This document shows positions 4,122 through 59,333 of a DNA stretch of 64,000 nt, one piece after another. The DNA lies in the NCBI RefSeq assembly GCF_015207005.2, contig NZ_JADEXS020000001.1:7525001-7589000 (forward strand), in the 5' to 3' direction. The position numbers and the translations under genes were made by a program. The stretch's first letter is position 1; each line of letters begins with the position of its first letter. The notes beneath the pieces were generated by a model. It saw nothing but the letters and a program-made list of their open reading frames with translations. It had not been told where the DNA came from and did no database searches. Source of the stretch: Desmonostoc muscorum LEGE 12446. GTDB taxonomy: Bacteria > Cyanobacteriota > Cyanobacteriia > Cyanobacteriales > Nostocaceae.

Positions 4122-4298
4122 GACTAGGGACTGGGGACTGGGGACTGGGGACTGGAGATGAGGGAGATGAGGGAGATGTAGCTTTAGCTTCCCGCAGGGT
4201 GGGAGATGAGGGGAATAACCAATGCCCCATACACCATCCCCAATCCCCAATCCCCAATCCCCAATCCCCAATCCCCAATCCCCAATCCCCAACCCCCT
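4122..4298. repeat. Heptamer/nonamer tandem repeats between psaD and trpE
   Basis: Several tandem GGGGACT heptamers (4124-4155) are followed by GAGGGAGAT-type nonamers (4158-4180) and then at least seven CCCCAAT heptamers (4238-4292). The purine-rich and pyrimidine-rich halves are partly complementary. The array ends just before the trpE start and leaves almost no unique leader sequence, so trpE translation and any psaD-trpE readthrough must pass through it. It extends the trpE frame upstream with a spurious Pro/Ser/Asn-rich stretch. Confidence 0.85.
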
Positions 4299-9453: not shown

Positions 9454-11439
9454 ATGACTGTCTCGAATTCCTTGTTGGAAGATTTGTGCCAAGTTCTACC
9501 AGATTTGCAACCTCAAATCTATTTCAAGTCTTCGTTGACGGCTGTTTCTCACGCAATAGAAGACTTGGTACTGGCAGCGACAGATCAACCCCTAGTGATT
9601 GCGAATTTTCAGCAGGAGCGTTTTTATCGCCAGGAGATTCCTCGCTATGAAAAAATTGCTCAGCATACAGACCAGGTTTATGTATTAGCTGCACCAGAAA
9701 GTGACTTTGGTATTGTTTCAGCTCCTTATGCAACCATTCCTTTTGCCCCTAATGACGAATTAGCTCAGGAATGGCATTTGATTGTGATCGGTCAGCTATA
9801 TTCAGCGTGCCTGATTTGTCGAGAACATGCTTCACCCATAGATTCAGCATCCCTAGACCAAGCAAGGGAATTTCAGGGAATTTGGACATTTGACCCCGAA
9901 GTTTGTATTCAGGCTGCCCGCCTATTGTTCGAGCGGATTCTGACTTACCGACCAGAATTAGCCCCTAAAATCCGGCAAGCGCACAGACGTTATCGACTGT
10001 TGCGGGAATCGCAAGTGCAGACATCAAGAAATAAAACACTAGGAATTGACTTCAGGCTATTTACCAACCGCTTAGTTACATATCTACAAGCTAGTCAATA
10101 CAGGCTACTGAAAGCTTATCGTACCATAGCTAGTAAAGAGCGAAAAGAACGTTTGATTAATGCGATCGCCACTACTATTCGCCGCTCTTTTAATCCAGAA
10201 GAGATTTTAACTGTTACCGTTAGAGAATTAGGTCAAGTTTTTAGCGATTGTCGGTGTCTAGTTTATCTTTATCAACCAGATAGTCAAAACCAGCCAATTG
10301 CTTATGAGTCAACACCTGTGGGATTGGCATCTTTGAAGAGGGAAGTTTGGACATTGGCAAGTCATCCCCTATTTCACACTGCTTTAGTGCCAAGTCAAAC
10401 TCAGGGCGAAAACCAATCACAAACTATAGTTATTGCTGATATCAACCAGGATTTTGGCTTACAGTCCGATCCAGAATTAAAAGCTCAATTGGTGCGCTGG
10501 CAAATTCGTGCTTGCTTGTTGGTACCGATTTGCTATCAAGGAACTTGGCTGGGAATGCTCGAACTGCACCAGCCAGAAGCTCATTTGTGGACAGAAGATG
10601 ATATAGCTTTAGTAGAGGCGATCGCTACACAGGTTGGAGTAGCTTTGATGCAGGCACAAGCTTATCGCAACTTAGAAACTCTGAATCGTCAGCTGGTAGA
10701 CTTGGAGCGGACTCAAAGTAACTTAATTGCGATCGTTGGCCATGAACTGCGTACTCCTTTATCTACCATCCGCGTTTGCTTAGAGAGTTTAATTACAGAA
10801 CCACAAATGCCGCTTAACTTGCAGCAGACGATGTTGCAAGCTGCTTTAGACGATGCAGATCGTTTGCGTAAACTAATTCAAGATTTTATTACCTTATCTC
10901 GCTTAGAAGGCGGGTTGGTGCGCTGGCAACTAGAGCCAATATCCCTTGAAGAATACCTAGATTTAGCCCTCAGCGGACTCGAATACCGACAGAAACTGCC
11001 TAAAATTGTCGTAGAATTGCCCCATCACTTACCGCCAATCCAGGTAGATGGCGAAGGACTGATTGAAGTTTTAACAAAGTTACTTGATAATGCCTGTAAG
11101 TTTACTGATAAAAGCGGACAAGTCACTATTCGTGCAGACCTTTTGAATCGAGAAGAAGTTGACCCACCCTTAGGAAAACCCGAGAAAACATCTGTGTTAA
11201 AAGTTACTATTGCAGATACAGGTCGAGGAATTGAACCGAGCCGACTAGAAACTATCTTTGAACGTTTTTATCAGGAAGAAGGATTTTTGCAACGCACTGT
11301 AGGTGGTGCGGGACTTGGTTTGGCGATTTGTCGTCGGATTATTGATAATTTAGGAGGTAAAATTTGGGCTGAGTCTTTGGGGAAAAATCAGGGTAGCGAG
11401 TTTCATTTTACGGTTCCGGTTGCAGTGCCTATTTCTTAA
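9454..11439 (+). CDS. DICT-GAF sensor histidine kinase (paralogue B)
   Basis: A 661-residue soluble kinase with the same plan as the protein at 1468-3477. DICT is at about 15-130 (IYFKSSLTAVSHAIEDLVLAA; QEWHLIVIGQLYSACLICRE), GAF at about 245-400, HisKA with IVGHELRTPLSTI near residue 430, and HATPase_c with LLDNACKFT, IADTGRGIEPS and GGAGLGLAI. The residues needed for ATP binding and phosphorylation are all present. It differs from paralogue A mainly by short insertions in the GAF region and between the N- and G1-boxes. No response regulator lies beside it. The two may share a partner or form heterodimers; this is inference. Confidence 0.9.
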   Translation: MTVSNSLLEDLCQVLPDLQPQIYFKSSLTAVSHAIEDLVLAATDQPLVIANFQQERFYRQEIPRYEKIAQHTDQVYVLAAPESDFGIVSAPYATIPFAPNDELAQEWHLIVIGQLYSACLICREHASPIDSASLDQAREFQGIWTFDPEVCIQAARLLFERILTYRPELAPKIRQAHRRYRLLRESQVQTSRNKTLGIDFRLFTNRLVTYLQASQYRLLKAYRTIASKERKERLINAIATTIRRSFNPEEILTVTVRELGQVFSDCRCLVYLYQPDSQNQPIAYESTPVGLASLKREVWTLASHPLFHTALVPSQTQGENQSQTIVIADINQDFGLQSDPELKAQLVRWQIRACLLVPICYQGTWLGMLELHQPEAHLWTEDDIALVEAIATQVGVALMQAQAYRNLETLNRQLVDLERTQSNLIAIVGHELRTPLSTIRVCLESLITEPQMPLNLQQTMLQAALDDADRLRKLIQDFITLSRLEGGLVRWQLEPISLEEYLDLALSGLEYRQKLPKIVVELPHHLPPIQVDGEGLIEVLTKLLDNACKFTDKSGQVTIRADLLNREEVDPPLGKPEKTSVLKVTIADTGRGIEPSRLETIFERFYQEEGFLQRTVGGAGLGLAICRRIIDNLGGKIWAESLGKNQGSEFHFTVPVAVPIS

Positions 11440-11476
11440 TTTGATGTTTGGATTTTGAAATAACATCCTGTTGATT

Positions 11477-13798
11477 TTACAGCCAAAATTGGCGATCGCC
11501 TTCCACTGTCCCTGGGGCAATTCCTTGTAACCGCCGATAAGCTATTTTGTCAGAACCGTATAATGGGACTGGTAAGCGAGGTTCTTTCAACGCCCCGTGA
11601 TGTAGCAATGTCAGTTTAAGTGTAGCTTCTATTAAACTTTCAATTGATACTTGCTGTTCGTGTTCAGGATCGGGAATAATCTTTAAACGCAGAGGATAAG
11701 GTAAACCCATTTTCTCAGACTTAACTTCAGTAGTGACTAAAATTACTTCATACGGCGATAAGCGAAGAGCTAACCCTTTAGTTGGTGCTGTCACTACAGA
11801 CTGCTGAAATTTATATAGTCGTGGAATCTGAGATTTGACACACTCCACCAAAATAAACTTTGAACCAATAACTTTTGCTCTTTCTCTTAAATTCTTTATC
11901 TCATCACCACAAAAACGTCCATCACGGTAAATTACTACAGTTTTTTGTCTTAATTCAGCAGATGGTAGAAACCTTTCTAGTGTTCGTTTATCAATTGTTT
12001 CACCCTCGGTTAAAGCATCTTCTAGTCGGTAACGAATAAACTCCCCTTGCTTATCATAGAGACGTACACTCGCACAGACATTTCTACTTCCGATTCCCTT
12101 CTTTTTAGAAAATCGGGAAACATCAAATCCGATGAAATAATCAGCAATTTCTAAAGGTTCAGCTAAAATAAAGGGTAAGTTTCCTAATTTTGCTAGAATT
12201 CCTGGAATTACCTGGTTCAGGATATTTCCATAATTGCTGGTATTTTTTAATGTCTCTTCATAAATTACTTGACTAGCAATTTCACGCCGGAGTAAGCGTG
12301 AATAAATAAATGAATAAAAGCTACCATCATCACTATTATCAGCATGGCGATCGCTCTGAGGGAGAAATGTCAAAACAATGTCTGTAGGAATAGCCATTAA
12401 TTCATTAACGGCTTCCTTAATTTTTTCTCTATCTTCAGGAACCGCCATTAATTTATCAACAGTTTCTTCAACTTTTTCTCTATCTTCAGGCACACTTGAT
12501 CTACTCACTGACAGAGCAACTTTATGAACAACTATACTTTTAAATCCATAGTTTTCTAGACGTTTCTGGACTTCCCGAATAAAAGGATCTACTTTAAAAT
12601 CACAAAGCTTCAAAGCAGTAATACGAATTTCTGTCATTTTATCTTGATATTGAATTTGACGACGGTAAACGCCACCTTTTAATAATCCCTTTAGTATATC
12701 TCCTCTTCTACCAATAAAATTTTGTCCAGATTTATCCTTTCCAAATAGAAGTTGAGTATCTTCCAGCTTAAATTTTAGCGGCAAGAATAATTCAGAGCAA
12801 TTGCTACTTTTACTACTATTTAGACACTTTTCTGATAACTCAAACCCATAAATATTTAGAGCAAGTGCAGCTTCTTGTTTATATGATGCTAAAGTCGTTT
12901 GTCGTTGTTGATAAGGGATCTTAGCTTCTTTGAGTAAATCCCCATAAATTACATCAAATCGTTCAGCAGTTTCTTCTGTGATACAGGGAATAAGAGCAGC
13001 CATTGCATAAGGATACCGTTTTTTGTTCTTACTAAACTGCACAACTACAACAGGTTGATCTCTAGGTGCTTCAATAATAGCTATTTCACTGGTTGATGCA
13101 GGCTTATATTTGAGTAATTCTTCTTCACGCTCACCAATAGTTCCTTCAATATCTACAATAGTAGCTGAACTATTCTTTTCAATATCTCGAACATTTAAAC
13201 CAATTAATAAATCTCTTGGATTTTGTCTATAAGGATGATTTTCGTAAAAATCAGACAATTTTCCTTTGAATACAAAAGAACTGCGGATGGTTATAGCAAT
13301 AGCTGGGTGTGAAATATTTGTAATTTCAATTGCTTCTGCCCAAACTTTTGCTTCTCGCCTAACTTCAATTTTGTTAAATGGAATACTAAAATATGAAAAT
13401 GTCCGTCTAATTTTTAATATTCTTATAGCTAGTTCAGAAAGAATATCAGCAGATATCTGTGGTTGGCTTACCCATTGGATTGAATAGTAGCGATCGCCAA
13501 TATCTTTTTTCAATTCCTCTTGAATTTCTGTTAAAGCTTTTCGCCATTCATCTAAATTTGGCATTGCTTGATCGGGTTTAGCTAAAACCCAGAAATTTCC
13601 ATTTGCAAAGATGGCCATAATATCAGGAAATTTCTGGCTAAACCGCCAACTTAAGCGATTTCCTATTTCAGTATCTAATCTGGGAGTCAGTCGAAAGCAG
13701 ATTAAGTTAGGTTGAGGAATTTTTAGTAAAAATATCTCTGCCAAAAATATTGGGGATATATTAGTTTTTAAGGGAGATTGAAGCACACCAGCAGTCAT
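11477..13798 (-). CDS. Long prokaryotic Argonaute (pAgo) with intact catalytic tetrad
   Basis: A 773-residue Argonaute, of the size of long pAgo proteins carrying N, PAZ, MID and PIWI parts. The PIWI catalytic residues can be read as Asp559 (FIGFDVSR), Glu600 (TEGETID, glutamate finger), Asp626 (VVIYRDGRF) and Asp750 ([11 protein letters not shown]), a DEDD tetrad, so nucleic-acid-guided cleavage is expected. The MID domain (about 475-550) contains [19 protein letters not shown] and [10 protein letters not shown]; the guide 5'-end pocket looks Tyr/Tyr/Gln/Lys-like rather than the common Tyr/Lys type. A 17-residue tandem duplication lies at 436-469. The ATG overlaps the stop of the upstream Cas4-like nuclease (ATGA). 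Known long pAgos protect against plasmids and phage or help decatenate chromosomes; which applies here is unknown. Confidence 0.92.
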
Positions 13799-14475
13799 GT
13801 AGAAACCTCTGATATAGTAAATTCACAAATTGAGTTAAACGAACAGTAGCGACAACTTACACCCGGATTTTGGGGAAATATTTGACTGAAATCAGCAGAA
13901 TTTTGACGGTAGCGCTTCAAATCTTCTTGATGTCGTTGAGCTATTAGAGCAAGTTCTATCTGAAAAGCCTTAAGAGTGTTAGGTGTTGCGCTGATAGGTT
14001 CTGACCAGTTACCATTTTCTAAGTTATAAAAAGATGCTACTGCTTTTTGCTGGGGGTACAAATAACTAGCTGCTAGTAAGTAAACATACCCCTGTCGGCG
14101 ATCAAAATCAGAGTGGCCAGTTTTGAAATCTAAAATGTGCAAAGTATCATCTTCTTCGGCAAAAATGCAGTCAGTTGCAGCATATAAGTTAAAAGATTGA
14201 TTACCCTGCTTAATCAGAATTGGTTTTGGAAAACGCTCATCGCCTCGGCTAAGTTGAATAATTTTCTTCTCAGCAAGAATTGGATTTTGCTGGTAGTTTG
14301 TCAGTATCTGAAGTACTCGTTGCTGAACCAAATCTGACTCTTTCCGCAATTCCAGAATCTCTATCATTTGTTCTACAGCGTCTTCTTGATGTAACAAAGG
14401 AGAGTTTTGATGAAATTCATAAACTCCCCTTTGTGCTAGTAGTCCAATTCGCACAGGGGTGCTATCACTTGCCAA
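13795..14475 (-). CDS. Cas4/RecB-like PD-(D/E)XK nuclease, pAgo operon partner
   Basis: About 226 residues. The nuclease core is visible as [26 protein letters not shown] near residues 106-131, where the Asp, Asp and Lys of the [12 protein letters not shown] motif match the metal-binding PD-(D/E)XK signature, followed by a [14 protein letters not shown] helix. The C-terminus has [10 protein letters not shown], three cysteines of the kind that hold an iron-sulphur cluster in Cas4/AddB proteins; the expected distal N-terminal cysteine is not seen. The start is uncertain: the frame opens only 3 codons before a TTG at 14475, so the natural 5' end may be lost at the junction with the peptidase pseudogene. 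It overlaps the pAgo start by 4 bp. Such nucleases are known neighbours of pAgo and may trim guides or targets. Confidence 0.8.
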
Positions 14476-14483
14476 GATTGCTT

Positions 14484-15062
14484 ACTAGGGTATGTGACTT
14501 TTTGAATTTGAGTATTTGTTATACACAAATATCTCCTGATGAGCGGGGATTGATTGTAGCTATGATTTTACCTTTAGAACGTACAATTTTGATAAATGAT
14601 GATATTCCAGAAGTTCTAGGGGCTTTTACCGAATCGACAATTGCTCACGAAATAGGACATTGGTTACTTCATGTTAACAAGAATGAAAATGAAGCTTTAT
14701 GGGAAAAAAGAGATATCAATAATGACATTAAAGAAACTAATAATCCATTCTTCTGTCGTAGTGCTAGTGAGCCACTTGATAAGTATATTGCTAGTAGTCA
14801 GCTTGATAAGATTGAATGGCAAGCCCAGTATTTTGCAAGCTGTCTGTTAATGCCTCGCCATGTATTGCAAAAAATAAGTAAAGGGCGTGATCTAACTAAT
14901 TGGAAACATCTTTATATAATTAAAGATGAACTTGGTGTAACAATATCTAATCTCATAAATCGGCTGCAAGATATTGGATGGATTTATATTCCTAAAGGTT
15001 CTAAGCAAATATTTCCTGGAAGTATGGAATCAGAATCTCAACGAATAAAGTATTGGTTATGA
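14484..15062 (+). pseudogene. ImmA/IrrE-type metallopeptidase, 5'-truncated copy
   Basis: From codon ACT at 14484 onward the reading aligns with the intact paralogue 24 bp downstream (RxxDxLxxxI, then ILPLER, then ESTIAHEIGHWLLHVN). The zinc motif HEIGH and the downstream glutamate motif EWQAQYFASCLLMP are intact, and the tail INRLQDIGW is conserved. About 45 N-terminal residues that the paralogue has are missing. There is no start codon at the homology boundary; the frame merely stays open upstream, antisense to the nuclease gene. The boundary lies about 10 bp from the start of that nuclease, so a deletion or rearrangement probably fused the two truncated ends. ImmA/IrrE peptidases cleave repressors to induce mobile elements or stress genes. 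Confidence 0.75.
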
Positions 15063-15085
15063 GTCAAGAATGTGAGGAGTAAAAA

Positions 15086-15781
15086 ATGAACATCTTCAAA
15101 AAATATCAATTTTATAGCAAAGAACAAATTGAGTTGAAAGCTAATGAAGTTTTAAGAATTATGGAGGTTGAGAATTTTCCTCCAAAGTGGCCTTTTGAGG
15201 CTAGTCGTGCTGCTGATGCTTTGGGAATAATGATTGACAGGCAAAGCATACCTCCTGATACTCAAGGGTCAATAGTGGCTAAAATTCTCCCATTGGAGAG
15301 AAAGATTGTACTCAATGAATTAATTCCTAATCTAAATGGAGGATTTGAACAATCGACAATAGCTCATGAAATTGGACACTGGATACTCCATGTCAATCAA
15401 GATGAAGCTGACGGGTTTACAGAACAGTTAGAATTAAATCTAGGACTAGAAGATGTCACGAAATATTTTTTATGCCGCACTGTAGACGCTAAAATTAGCC
15501 AGATAAATATGAATAACCAGTTAGGAAATATTGAATGGCAAGCTCAGTTTTTTGCTAGTTGTCTGTTAATGCCTATACACATTCTAGAGGCTACACTAAA
15601 AGGACGTGATTTAACTAACTGGAAACATCTTTATGCAATGAAAGACCAACTTGGTGTCACAATTTCTAATTTGATAAATCGCCTAGAAGACCTCGACTGG
15701 ATTAACATTCCTAAGGGATCTAAGCAAATATATCTCGGTAAAGCTGTACCAAATGGGCAGACAAATTTGTTTAATAGCTAA
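15086..15781 (+). CDS. ImmA/IrrE-family zinc metallopeptidase
   Basis: A 231-residue protein with a GAGGAG ribosome-binding site just before the ATG. The N-terminal helices (FYSKEQIELKANEVLRIMEV) lead to the catalytic region: STIAHEIGHWILHVN near residue 92 supplies HExxH, and GNIEWQAQFFASCLLMP near 152 supplies the third zinc ligand. The C-terminal TNWKHLYAMKDQLGVTISNL segment resembles the small helical domain of the family. No N-terminal XRE helix-turn-helix is fused, and no separate repressor gene is beside it. Relatives cleave HTH repressors such as ImmR or DdrO. The closeness to the pAgo operon suggests a regulatory or defence-island role, which is inference. It is a tandem duplicate of the truncated copy upstream. 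Confidence 0.85.
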   Translation: MNIFKKYQFYSKEQIELKANEVLRIMEVENFPPKWPFEASRAADALGIMIDRQSIPPDTQGSIVAKILPLERKIVLNELIPNLNGGFEQSTIAHEIGHWILHVNQDEADGFTEQLELNLGLEDVTKYFLCRTVDAKISQINMNNQLGNIEWQAQFFASCLLMPIHILEATLKGRDLTNWKHLYAMKDQLGVTISNLINRLEDLDWINIPKGSKQIYLGKAVPNGQTNLFNS

Positions 15782-15865
15782 AGTGCGATCGCTCTCCATT
15801 ATCTCCTGGCAGCGATCGCACCCCACACACCACTAAACTAGAAAGTAAGATGTCGGGATAAGTCT

Positions 15866-16453
15866 ATGAACGCTACTACAGTCGCTTTACCTTCAATCGT
15901 CAAACTAAAAATTGATTTGAGCGATGAACAATTTTTCCAAATGTGTCAGAAAAACCGCGATTATCGATTTGAACGTACAGCGTCAGGAGAAATATTAATT
16001 ATGCCACCTACAGGTAGTGATACTGGCAGACGTAATGTTAAAATTACCACTCAATTGGATATTTGGAATTCTGAGAGTAATTTAGGCGAAGTTTTTGACT
16101 CTTCAACAGGTTTCACCCTACCCAATGGTGCAGAACGTTCTCCCGATGCTTCCTGGGTGAAAATTGAGCGGTGGAATGCTTTAACCCCACAACAACAAGA
16201 AAAATTTGCCCCGATTTGTCCTGATTTTGTAGTTGAGTTACGTTCTCCTAGTGATTCTCTAAAAGATTTGCAGGAGAAAATGCAAGAGTATATCGAAAAT
16301 GGCGCTCAATTAGGCTGGTTAATCGACCGAAAAAATAAGCGAGTAGAAATTTATTGTCCAGGTAAAGATGTAGAAATATTAAACAATCCTACTAGTTTAT
16401 CAGGGGAAAATGTCCTGCCTGAATTTATGTTGAATTTACAAGATATTATGTAG
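15866..16453 (+). CDS. Uma2-family (DUF820) putative restriction-type endonuclease fold protein
   Basis: A 195-residue protein of the Uma2 family, abundant in cyanobacteria and built on a PD-(D/E)XK fold. Recognisable parts are the ISLEEF-like start replaced by LKIDLSDEQFFQMC, the IMPPTGSDTGRRN turn, RSPDASWVKIERW, and the core CPDFVVELRSPSDSLKDLQ followed by the Lys-containing KMQEYIENGAQLGWLID and RVEIY strand. The Asp, Glu and Lys of the fold seem present. Biological role and substrate are not established for the family. It is 85 bp after the ImmA gene and meets the next gene tail to tail 2 bp away. Confidence 0.88.
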   Translation: MNATTVALPSIVKLKIDLSDEQFFQMCQKNRDYRFERTASGEILIMPPTGSDTGRRNVKITTQLDIWNSESNLGEVFDSSTGFTLPNGAERSPDASWVKIERWNALTPQQQEKFAPICPDFVVELRSPSDSLKDLQEKMQEYIENGAQLGWLIDRKNKRVEIYCPGKDVEILNNPTSLSGENVLPEFMLNLQDIM

Positions 16454-16455
16454 CT

Positions 16456-17868
16456 TTATTGATTAAGATACACATGGCGCATTTCAAAGCGACTCTGTTC
16501 CCAAAGTGGTTGCAAAGCTTGTTGAGCAGCATTTAACTGAGCTTGAGAAAAACTAATTTTTCCATTTTCTATTATCCAGATAAAAGTCCGAGTTATTAAA
16601 TCTGCGTTGAAACTCTTTTCATATTTACTATTATTTATTCTTGCTACTTGTTCATCTAAGCAATTGATAGCATATTTAAAATTCCAGTGTGTAGAATTAC
16701 TAGGGATTTCTTCTTGTGTATTCTTCCATTTAATCCTCAGCAAATTTCTCATAATATAGTCTATGCCTGTTATGGCAGAATCAGTATTCCGGATCAAATC
16801 TGTAAATGCTTGATAATAAGATTGCAATAGTGAAGCAGCAATATTTTCCTTATATATATGTAACCAAGACTGGATATCACGAAGATAAGGTAATAAATCC
16901 CTAATATGATTTATTTCTTTTATTTGCAGGCGTTCGCCTTTATAATTTATGATTTCAGCTAGTAATTCAGCTTCAGATAATTGAAACTTGTCTAAATAAT
17001 AATTAATAACTTTAGGAATATATTTATCCAATAACCAATGCTTAGTATATCTAGCTGTCCAGGTTCCCCGTAGACCGATGTCTTGTTGCCAAGAAGTGAC
17101 TTTCCCTCTTTCAATAGATTGCAAATAAACATCATTTATTTTATATATGATATTTATTTTATAATTAGGTAATAATGATAAATCACTATCAACTCTGGGC
17201 AAGATAAATGCATGATCACGAATTCCTCGACTCACTCGAATTGAGATATCTTCATTATGAAATAAATGCCATTCTGACTTGCCCTTACTATAATCAAATT
17301 CATCAGCAAATTGCTGCATTAACTTCCACAGTTTTTGTCCTACAGAAAACAATATAAAACCTCGAACATTTGCAACATCTATAAATTCAAAATCCCAGGT
17401 TTGTAGAGAATTTTCAAATTCAATTATTGATTTTCTGTATTCTTGACAAACTCCATCAACACACAAACACAAATCTAATGTTTCTAATTTCGATAAAACA
17501 ACTGTTGTTTTGCCTAAATTTACTTCAAAATTATTTTGATCTAGCTGTTTCAAAAACCGACGACAACCCCAATCTGGTTGAGTGTTTATTCCAGTCATTA
17601 ATTGACCCAAAATATCTTGATGGTTTAAGCTTATTTTCAGACCTCTTAAAATGATGTTGCTGAAGTCTATTTCACAATTACCTTCTGCAAAAGCTTGGGG
17701 TAAATTACAGGCGATCGCTACTTTTGGTTGCACAACAACCAAGCGGTTACCTTCTCGCTTAGTTAAAGGCTCAAAATTACATGTTTCTAAAATATCCTGT
17801 AAATCTGGGTGACGCCTTATAATCTTTTCTATTAAATTATATTTAGTATTTATCCAAATATTACTCAT
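16456..17868 (-). CDS. Unrecognised 470-residue protein
   Basis: I do not recognise this family. The reading MSNIWINTKYNLIEKII opens a soluble protein without signal peptide, membrane segments or obvious nucleotide-binding motif. The N-terminal third is mixed alpha/beta with scattered cysteines (LETCNF, LDLCLCVDGVC). The C-terminal half is strongly helical and rich in Leu, Ile, Asn and Lys (LSEAELLAEIINYKGERLQIKEI). The gene is AT-rich like the pAgo operon and is convergent with the Uma2 gene, with 2 bp between stop codons. The position next to pAgo, ImmA and Uma2 genes raises the possibility of an island function; nothing in the sequence proves it. Confidence 0.75.
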   Translation of the reverse strand: MSNIWINTKYNLIEKIIRRHPDLQDILETCNFEPLTKREGNRLVVVQPKVAIACNLPQAFAEGNCEIDFSNIILRGLKISLNHQDILGQLMTGINTQPDWGCRRFLKQLDQNNFEVNLGKTTVVLSKLETLDLCLCVDGVCQEYRKSIIEFENSLQTWDFEFIDVANVRGFILFSVGQKLWKLMQQFADEFDYSKGKSEWHLFHNEDISIRVSRGIRDHAFILPRVDSDLSLLPNYKINIIYKINDVYLQSIERGKVTSWQQDIGLRGTWTARYTKHWLLDKYIPKVINYYLDKFQLSEAELLAEIINYKGERLQIKEINHIRDLLPYLRDIQSWLHIYKENIAASLLQSYYQAFTDLIRNTDSAITGIDYIMRNLLRIKWKNTQEEIPSNSTHWNFKYAINCLDEQVARINNSKYEKSFNADLITRTFIWIIENGKISFSQAQLNAAQQALQPLWEQSRFEMRHVYLNQ

Positions 17869-42801: not shown

Positions 42802-42840
42802 TAAGACTTAGGCTGTGGCTGCATAAGTCTTAATTTTTTT
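42802..42840 (+). terminator. Intrinsic terminator of nblA
   Basis: TAAGACTTA (42802-42810) pairs with TAAGTCTTA (42824-42832) over 13 bases and is followed by ATTTTTTTT. It lies 26 bp after the nblA stop. Confidence 0.88.
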
Positions 42841-43018
42841 GGGGATTGGGGAGTGGGGAGTGGGGAGTGGGGGAGATGAGGGAGATGAGGGAGATGAGGG
42901 AGCAGGGGAAGCAGGGGAAGCAGGGGAAGCAGGGGGAGGATAACTCTTAACTACTAACTCAGCACTCCCCATGCCCAATGCCCTACTCCCTACTCCCCAC
43001 TCCCTACTCCCCAAAAAA
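42840..43018. repeat. GGGGAGT / CCCCACT repeat patch with inverted arms
   Basis: GGGGAGT heptamers and GAGGGAGAT, GGGGAAGCA units (42850-42940) are followed by CCCTACT/CCCCACT heptamers (42965-43015), forming potential long inverted arms. The patch separates nblA from cpeBA and ends about 140 bp before the cpeB start. Confidence 0.85.
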
Positions 43019-59215: not shown

Positions 59216-59307
59216 CCCCCTGCTCCCCCTGCTTCCCCTGCTTCCCCTGCTCCCCCTGCTCCCCCTGCTCCCCCTGCTTCCCCTGCTCCCCCTGCTCCCC
59301 CTGCTCT
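59216..59307. repeat. CCCCCTGCT(T/C) tandem array
   Basis: About ten units of CCCCCTGCTC or CCCCTGCTTC in tandem, just before the stop of the nurA gene on the minus strand. Confidence 0.9.
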
Positions 59308-59333
59308 CTTCATTTTCTGGAAGTCCCTAAACT

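Follow-up and report, generated by a model that had tools for sequence, protein, structure and literature searches.

A truncated nuclease–Argonaute locus in Desmonostoc muscorum LEGE 12446 and the divergent XRE–ImmA module of its cyanobacterial relatives

A stretch of 64,000 nt from the genome of Desmonostoc muscorum LEGE 12446 (contig NZ_JADEXS020000001.1, positions 7,525,001 to 7,589,000; the window) encodes a long prokaryotic Argonaute (pAgo) and a Cas4-like nuclease, next to the remnant of an XRE–ImmA gene. The locus is likely to be a cyanobacterial four-gene system in damaged form, composed of an XRE–ImmA switch and a Cas4-like nuclease–pAgo pair; its nuclease is probably inactive, its pAgo probably lacks the native promoter and the whole appears to be on its way out. 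Gene order, a shared palindrome, the protein families and the deletion that damaged this copy are established; function is what we infer. The pairing of nuclease and pAgo, as first stated in a preliminary description of the window, is already known, because PADLOC models both proteins and the PDB holds relatives of both. The XRE–ImmA module and the palindrome are the added part.

The nuclease–pAgo pair and its truncation

The window has the same two proteins, in the same order and with the same overlap, as the PADLOC pair pAgo_II and Aga_Cas4-like_Nuc (PDB 9iad, 9iab and 9iac); 9iac and the nuclease linked to pAgo in one genome of our samples (G295) are nearly identical. Cyanobacterial Argonautes and Cas4-family nucleases reportedly act together, according to a 2025 Molecular Cell paper, which would fit these entries. 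In comparison with the PADLOC/PDB pair, the window nuclease is without its N-terminal 47 residues and first Cys, and the intergenic region and the helix-turn-helix (HTH) of the regulator are deleted. The pair genuinely occurs, is common and has been catalogued before. In 78 other cyanobacterial pAgo loci, drawn from genus, phylum and order samples, a nuclease gene stands upstream of pAgo on the same strand 73 times (72 of them within 150 bp); in the five loci without it, four of the pAgos are ≤42% and the fifth is 51% identical to that of the window. Matches to pAgo occur in 14 of 53 genomes of the genus (the window's own included, three by fragments only), in 19 of 386 genomes of the phylum sample and in 75 of 388 of the order sample. 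Eight of these 75 genomes, with a split or partial pAgo match, were left out (G477, G488, G501, G549, G585, G648, G682 and G694), as were fragments in G023, G025 and G009 and a broken second copy in G024 (L084). Cas4 proteins in pAgo operons are listed by Ryazansky et al. 2018 (PMC6299218).

The window pAgo matches the PADLOC model pAgo_II (E=0; residues 10–773 over model positions 5–737), carries the Piwi domain PF02171 (Pfam) and has 9iad_A as its closest PDB relative (E=3.6e-281). No PAZ domain is among the Pfam matches listed, from a general domain scan with no PAZ-directed search. The catalytic tetrad D559/E600/D626/D750, already read in the preliminary description, is intact and conserved in an alignment of 34 full-length loci, window included: D559, E600 and D626 are identical in 34/34, and position 750 is D in 29, H in four and a gap in one. 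The Tyr/Tyr pair of the MID pocket was also read correctly (Y495/Y499). Y495 and a further MID residue, Q510, are present in all 34 loci, and the second MID position is Y in 15, S in 12 and K in seven; it is Ser in LEGE 12450 and JL33, the two closest full loci, and in 14 of 16 close sequences. The suggestion that Tyr/Tyr marks unusual guide ends is not supported, because the position varies in relatives and PMC6299218 accepts Y as the second residue of the 5'-phosphate motif. Most such variants are thought, in the same paper, to bind 5'-phosphate guides, and some might not.

The 9.6-Mb host genome gives a single pAgo match, and the nearest named relatives of the protein are from Nostoc. The gene looks mosaic, because its identity to relatives differs by stretch and its middle is unaligned: compared with G024, G028 and G071, the nuclease and the N-terminal half of pAgo are ∼85% identical and the C-terminal half ∼77%, and positions 12414–12832 (residues ∼322–461) give no blastn alignment with G024 and G028. 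A tandem 17-aa duplication (VPEDREK...) lies at 12392–12493 (residues 436–469); it is found in LEGE 12450 and, judged by length, in P0001, and is single in JL33 and in P0002–P0014.

The pAgo ATG overlaps the stop codon of the nuclease in a shared 4-bp ATGA (−4), as described before. The nuclease matches Aga_Cas4-like_Nuc (PADLOC, E=6e-119), 9iab_A (E=1.6e-93) and 9iac_A in the PDB, and PF12705 in Pfam; the PADLOC alignment starts only at model position 46 and the PDB alignments begin at residues 50 and 55. Its homologues mostly measure about 273 aa (among 120 of 563 homologues listed), the first 47 residues being those missing in the window, and the pAgo-linked nuclease open reading frames (ORFs) of other loci span 269–349 aa (n=73). 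A 276-aa ORF occupies the same place in G024, G028, G068, G069 and G071, and the window frame is without the first 48 residues of the ORF in G024. The first remaining start codon is a TTG at 14475; two codons earlier, an in-frame TAA that spans the deletion junction closes the frame.

An N-terminal Cys is present in 73/73 other pAgo-linked nucleases and absent only from the window copy. The remaining four conserved Cys occur in 74/74 sequences, window included, and the C-terminal trio C208/C211/C217 persists. The residues D152, D166, K168 and Q178 (L032 numbering), which we take to be the putative PD-(D/E)XK catalytic D/DxK/Q, are invariant in 22 aligned rows, window included. In Cas4 and AddB, an N-terminal Cys and a C-terminal Cys trio bind an Fe–S cluster (four-Cys type). 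Loss of the N-terminal Cys should inactivate the nuclease, because by analogy with these proteins it would bind such a cluster. A Gly-to-Arg change in the GDEG motif, found only in the window in the 22-row alignment, was considered as a sign of decay and dropped, because a test on 74 sequences gave no window change at strictly invariant columns. Elsewhere in the host genome stands a full-length, stand-alone paralogue of the nuclease (G000:C1:3288430-3289086; L035:8287-9138).

The truncation results from a deletion. The segments 11475–14482 and 14483–16605 align by blastn to the genome of Nostoc sp. LEGE 12450 (G068) at 93% each, and the 1,236 bp of G068 lying between both aligned parts (L076, 10205–11440) are missing in the window. 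A 141-base probe across the junction gives left-hand matches that stop at one and the same base in G068, G069, G071, G024 and G028, and right-hand matches that start with the following base in G068 and G024; among the eight genomes searched, the junction is found only in the window's own. Relative to LEGE 12450, the deletion took the nuclease N-terminus, the shared intergenic region and the HTH half of the neighbouring XRE–ImmA gene. No repeat or microhomology joining the breakpoints was seen in this blunt join, and a single 13-nt repeat, present in the relative, does not connect the two breakpoints. Relocation of the missing nuclease start was ruled out: when the missing stretch (G024 version) was sought in the host genome, only 39 bases at the junction itself matched.

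The pAgo of the window forms the longest branch among 16 close sequences, with 19 private substitutions and at most 10 in each of the 15 others. Non-synonymous changes number 49/101 on its branch versus 15/51 on that of LEGE 12450 (P=0.036). These comparisons are weak evidence of relaxed constraint on the gene. The pair has probably ceased to work in this copy. The CxxC...C tail of the nuclease was correctly noted in the preliminary description, but the N-terminal truncation was missed. Its ranking of the locus as the best candidate defence system is doubtful for the window copy, because the deletion cost it the start of the nuclease, the intergenic region and the regulator's DNA-binding domain, although it was right about the coupling of cyanobacterial long pAgo and nuclease. 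Neither of the two findings that it named as counter-evidence, a non-conserved catalytic position or absence of the pair from other genomes, was made. Collectively, that first observation is mostly right and its local reading is not, because the window nuclease is a stump.

The XRE–ImmA module and its palindrome

In intact loci, XRE and/or ImmA genes are divergent from the nuclease gene in 59 of 71 cases and in 17 of 19 families, the 71 being loci with a nuclease and at least 1.5 kb upstream. Seven loci are outside this count, five without nuclease and two (G475 and G496) with <1.5 kb upstream; an XRE gene is nonetheless present in G496, which counts among the 40 palindrome loci below. Two genes with XRE nearest are found in 52 of the 59, a long ImmA ORF is nearest in six and an ImmA fragment in one. 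Three of the six long ImmA ORFs, when read, are XRE–ImmA fusions, and that of G024 is without an HTH as listed. The median distance between the divergent ORF starts is 173 bp. No XRE or ImmA gene lies within 1.5 kb of the stand-alone nuclease paralogue in 21 loci (phmmer) or in the longer flanks inspected around that of the host (L035); these 21 loci are few independent cases, because all belong to one genus. The ImmA genes, which the preliminary description had correctly placed beside the pair together with a Uma2 gene, are part of a conserved divergent module, not incidental neighbours.

The gene diverging from the nuclease in LEGE 12450 encodes a 365-aa protein in which an XRE HTH is fused to an M78 peptidase. 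Residues 1–172 of this fused protein are deleted in the window, which has no HTH repressor there. The ORF listed at 14280–15062 (+) is the truncated XRE–ImmA gene; its apparent start falls inside the nuclease, on the opposite strand, and is probably spurious.

Pfam HTH_3 and Peptidase_M78 were found in the XRE and ImmA examples scanned. The PADLOC capH model matches single-domain XRE proteins with E values of 4.6e-6 to 4.6e-11 and the fusion with 1.3e-8, and capP matches the ImmA proteins with 1.7e-15 to 9.9e-20; a sequence search of the PDB with ImmA gave no credible match. All 14 XRE proteins aligned share the unvaried stretch TYLSKLEN. Nostoc sp. CENA543 (G399) carries all four genes intact, with a perfect palindrome and an integrase gene nearby, on its 44-kb mobilizable plasmid pCENA543b (NZ_CP023282.1 29626–33952, L183). 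This neighbourhood is visible in public annotation, because the pCENA543b genes are annotated as a helix-turn-helix regulator and an ImmA/IrrE peptidase; its meaning is not stated in the literature searched.

The palindrome TGTTGAC-N7-GTCAACA was derived from exact inverted repeats in 20 intergenic regions, and mismatches were counted of 14, the control being a search of the same sequences with the pattern reversed but not complemented. At ≤2 mismatches, it occurs in 24 of 40 held-out loci (control 0/40) and in eight of the 20 discovery loci (control 0); at ≤3 mismatches, the held-out figures are 29/40 and 2/40. Three held-out sites are perfect, and the 29 sites represent 21 distinct sequences. 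The held-out loci are not independent, since 12 of the 24 belong to family f8 (one discovery member); outside f8, the palindrome is found in 12/25. Of the 24 sites, 13 precede the XRE ORF start by 33–39 bp and four by about 80 bp. In the 12 loci without XRE/ImmA, no palindrome is found at ≤2 mismatches and one at three. A genome-wide regulon marked by the palindrome is not proposed, counts in nine genomes being close to those of the reversed control. In LEGE 12450, the palindrome falls within the stretch deleted from the window, and the best match left at window positions 11400–17000 has five mismatches.

Proposed regulation and alternative readings

In intact copies, the XRE protein would bind the palindrome and keep the locus repressed. 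The ImmA peptidase, if activated by single-stranded DNA (ssDNA) like CapP and PprI, would cleave the XRE repressor, and nuclease and pAgo would then be made. The nuclease would supply or trim DNA guides, with which pAgo would cut invading DNA. In the window, the 1.2-kb deletion has taken away the repressor HTH, the palindrome, the intergenic region presumed to hold the promoter and the N-terminal part of the nuclease, including its first conserved Cys; this probably leaves the nuclease inactive and pAgo without its native promoter. The broader proposal, that the pAgo–Cas4 nuclease system is a four-gene damage-inducible one whose CapH/CapP-like XRE–ImmA switch turns on pAgo and nuclease via the palindrome upon ssDNA build-up, could go either way.

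Models for such a switch exist. PprI and DdrO control a wider repair regulon, not one adjacent operon. In Deinococcus, as described in PMC10904395, PprI (IrrE) is a metallopeptidase that cleaves the repressor DdrO when bound to ssDNA, and the XRE–ImmA module may be likened to it by description. CapH and CapP form an HTH–M78 pair beside an immune operon, as in the intact relatives, in which the PADLOC capH and capP models were matched. CapP is activated on ssDNA binding and cleaves CapH, and BREX, Pycsar, CBASS and DISARM operons are under damage-responsive regulators, CapW/BrxR or CapH plus CapP (both from PMC13373217, a paper in which the words Argonaute and pAgo occur 0 times). In contrast to CapH/CapP of CBASS, the pair of the relatives adjoins nuclease–pAgo; its scores are modest and the likeness is one of sequence. 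The window, for its part, keeps peptidase parts only. Among cyanobacterial proteins, the DNA-guided SeAgo of Synechococcus elongatus PCC 7942 is comparable by description, and both ago and cas4 of this organism limit RSF1010 plasmids (PMC10653904). Literature linking Argonaute with the ImmA, XRE, CapP/CapH or IrrE families was not found among the matches listed; those naming both prokaryotic Argonaute and the XRE family use the terms apart, in the portions accessible. A Cas4 phylogeny (PMC5704561) mentions neither Argonaute nor XRE.

Other readings of the window have to be weighed. An intact and working locus, in which translation from TTG 14475 yields a 226-aa nuclease that folds despite lacking the first 47 residues and acts with pAgo, is quite improbable: the frame is open, the putative PD-(D/E)XK residues and the C-terminal Cys trio are kept, invariant columns are unmutated and the start/stop overlap with pAgo persists, but all 73 other nucleases are full length with an N-terminal Cys, the intergenic region and the regulator HTH are lost as well, and the TTG is two codons past an in-frame stop. 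It is conceivable, if still unlikely, that pAgo is useful alone or with the full-length paralogue (C1:3288430) in place of its truncated partner. This paralogue has an N-terminal Cys, is 57% identical to the window nuclease over the matched part, exists in copies of such identity (55–59%) in 33 of 34 other genus genomes and could partner pAgo in trans; the pAgo tetrad is intact, and a cas4-like gene of S. elongatus is among the plasmid-interference hits with ago (PMC10653904). Joint action of paralogue and pAgo is hypothetical, however, the presumed pAgo promoter region is gone and the pAgo branch is the longest among close relatives. As to the truncation itself, an assembly artefact is highly improbable. 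The junction is restricted to the window's own genome among the eight searched, and no 226-aa form was found among 120 of 563 homologues listed (four listed of 214–244 aa were not examined), as an artefact would have it; the join is nevertheless blunt, with no repeat at the window breakpoint, and lies inside an 8.86-Mb contig of a 100% complete assembly of 12 contigs. Finally, it is rather unlikely that the XRE–ImmA genes serve as a switch for island maintenance or for a mobile element, accompanying the locus without controlling nuclease–pAgo. ImmR/ImmA pairs are typical of integrative elements, and the intact copy of pCENA543b lies on a mobilizable plasmid and has an integrase gene close by. 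On the other side, the module is divergent beside the nuclease in the 59 of 71 loci and 17 families given above, with the palindrome in the shared intergenic region, and is found at none of the 21 paralogue loci.

Several observations speak against a damaged copy of a switch-controlled system. The ssDNA sensing, the repressor cleavage and the guide supply would all hold by analogy with relatives, and the junction, seen in the assembly only, could be an assembly fault. The XRE–ImmA genes are absent from 12/71 loci; a Uma2 gene stands divergently in their position in four of these 12 (G021, G006, G397 and G102; L082, L083, L094 and L095), all in Nostocaceae. Every single-domain XRE scanned scores better with HTH_VI than with capH, and the fusion better with RmrA than with capP. 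In the discovery loci at ≤3 mismatches, the palindrome is found in 12 versus six for the control, and genome-wide, at two mismatches, the counts are 346 versus 331 over nine genomes; the case for the palindrome thus rests on its placement, because the genome-wide count is near background. With JL33 added to the comparison of pAgo branches, the non-synonymous share set against the 49/101 of the window is 36/98, and the rate signal is not significant (P=0.115). The window pAgo is unchanged at 55/55 invariant columns and the nuclease at the 23/23 columns invariant in others; because of these intact columns and the lack of a non-synonymous excess (16 synonymous and 11 non-synonymous changes versus 12 and 7), decay of the nuclease remainder is not visible.

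The island site, neighbouring genes and significance

The coordinates of the locus and of its neighbours are collected in Table 1.

Table 1. Features of the nuclease–pAgo locus and its surroundings in the window
Feature	Position	Strand	Remarks
Long pAgo	11477–13798	−	773 aa, open frame; PADLOC, PDB, alignment
Cas4-like PD-(D/E)XK nuclease, N-terminally truncated	13795–14475	−	226 aa; profile, PDB, ORF comparison
Deletion junction	14482/14483 (14482|14483)		1,236 bp of Nostoc sp. LEGE 12450 missing
XRE–ImmA fusion remnant	14483–15062	+	∼residues 173–365 of 365-aa relative; HTH lost, M78 peptidase core left
Second ImmA/IrrE-type (M78, CapP-like) peptidase	15086–15781	+	231 aa, open, HEIGH motif
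Uma2-family putative endonuclease	15866–16453	+	Domain match; adjoins ImmA gene in several Nostoc relatives too
Island extent	11441–15811		Absent from conspecific genome G062

In the conspecific genome G062, which is 98–99% identical around the site, ∼1.5 kb replaces the island. This replacement holds a gene for a 255-aa DUF559/RAP-type putative endonuclease (L102:8719-9486 (−), G062:C197). Because this DUF559-type gene stands in for the pAgo island, the position has the look of a small site at which defence-type genes are exchanged. What G032 retains at this site is limited to the C-terminal half of the nuclease, the opening codons of pAgo and two ImmA pieces. Short repeats at window positions 4219–4296, 42839–42945 and 59217–59308 cross-match L034 14366–14480, near this pAgo ruin. 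Rfam and tRNA scans of the window gave no matches. A phage origin was considered and set aside, a tblastn search of the phage collection with the nuclease of a relative having given no match.

A pAgo whose guides come from the host's own DNA has to be held under restraint, and to our knowledge the control of pAgo expression is largely open. The CapH/CapP-like switch within the cyanobacterial pAgo–nuclease system is the part worth following, and its conserved repressor–peptidase pair, together with the shared palindrome, makes pAgo control directly testable. If the proposed switch is real, pAgo expression would be tied to the same ssDNA, from stalled forks or invaders, that yields guides. The window offers a natural case of a pAgo parted from the N-terminus of its nuclease and from its switch; under the same proposal, this pAgo would have been cut loose from both its control and its partner.

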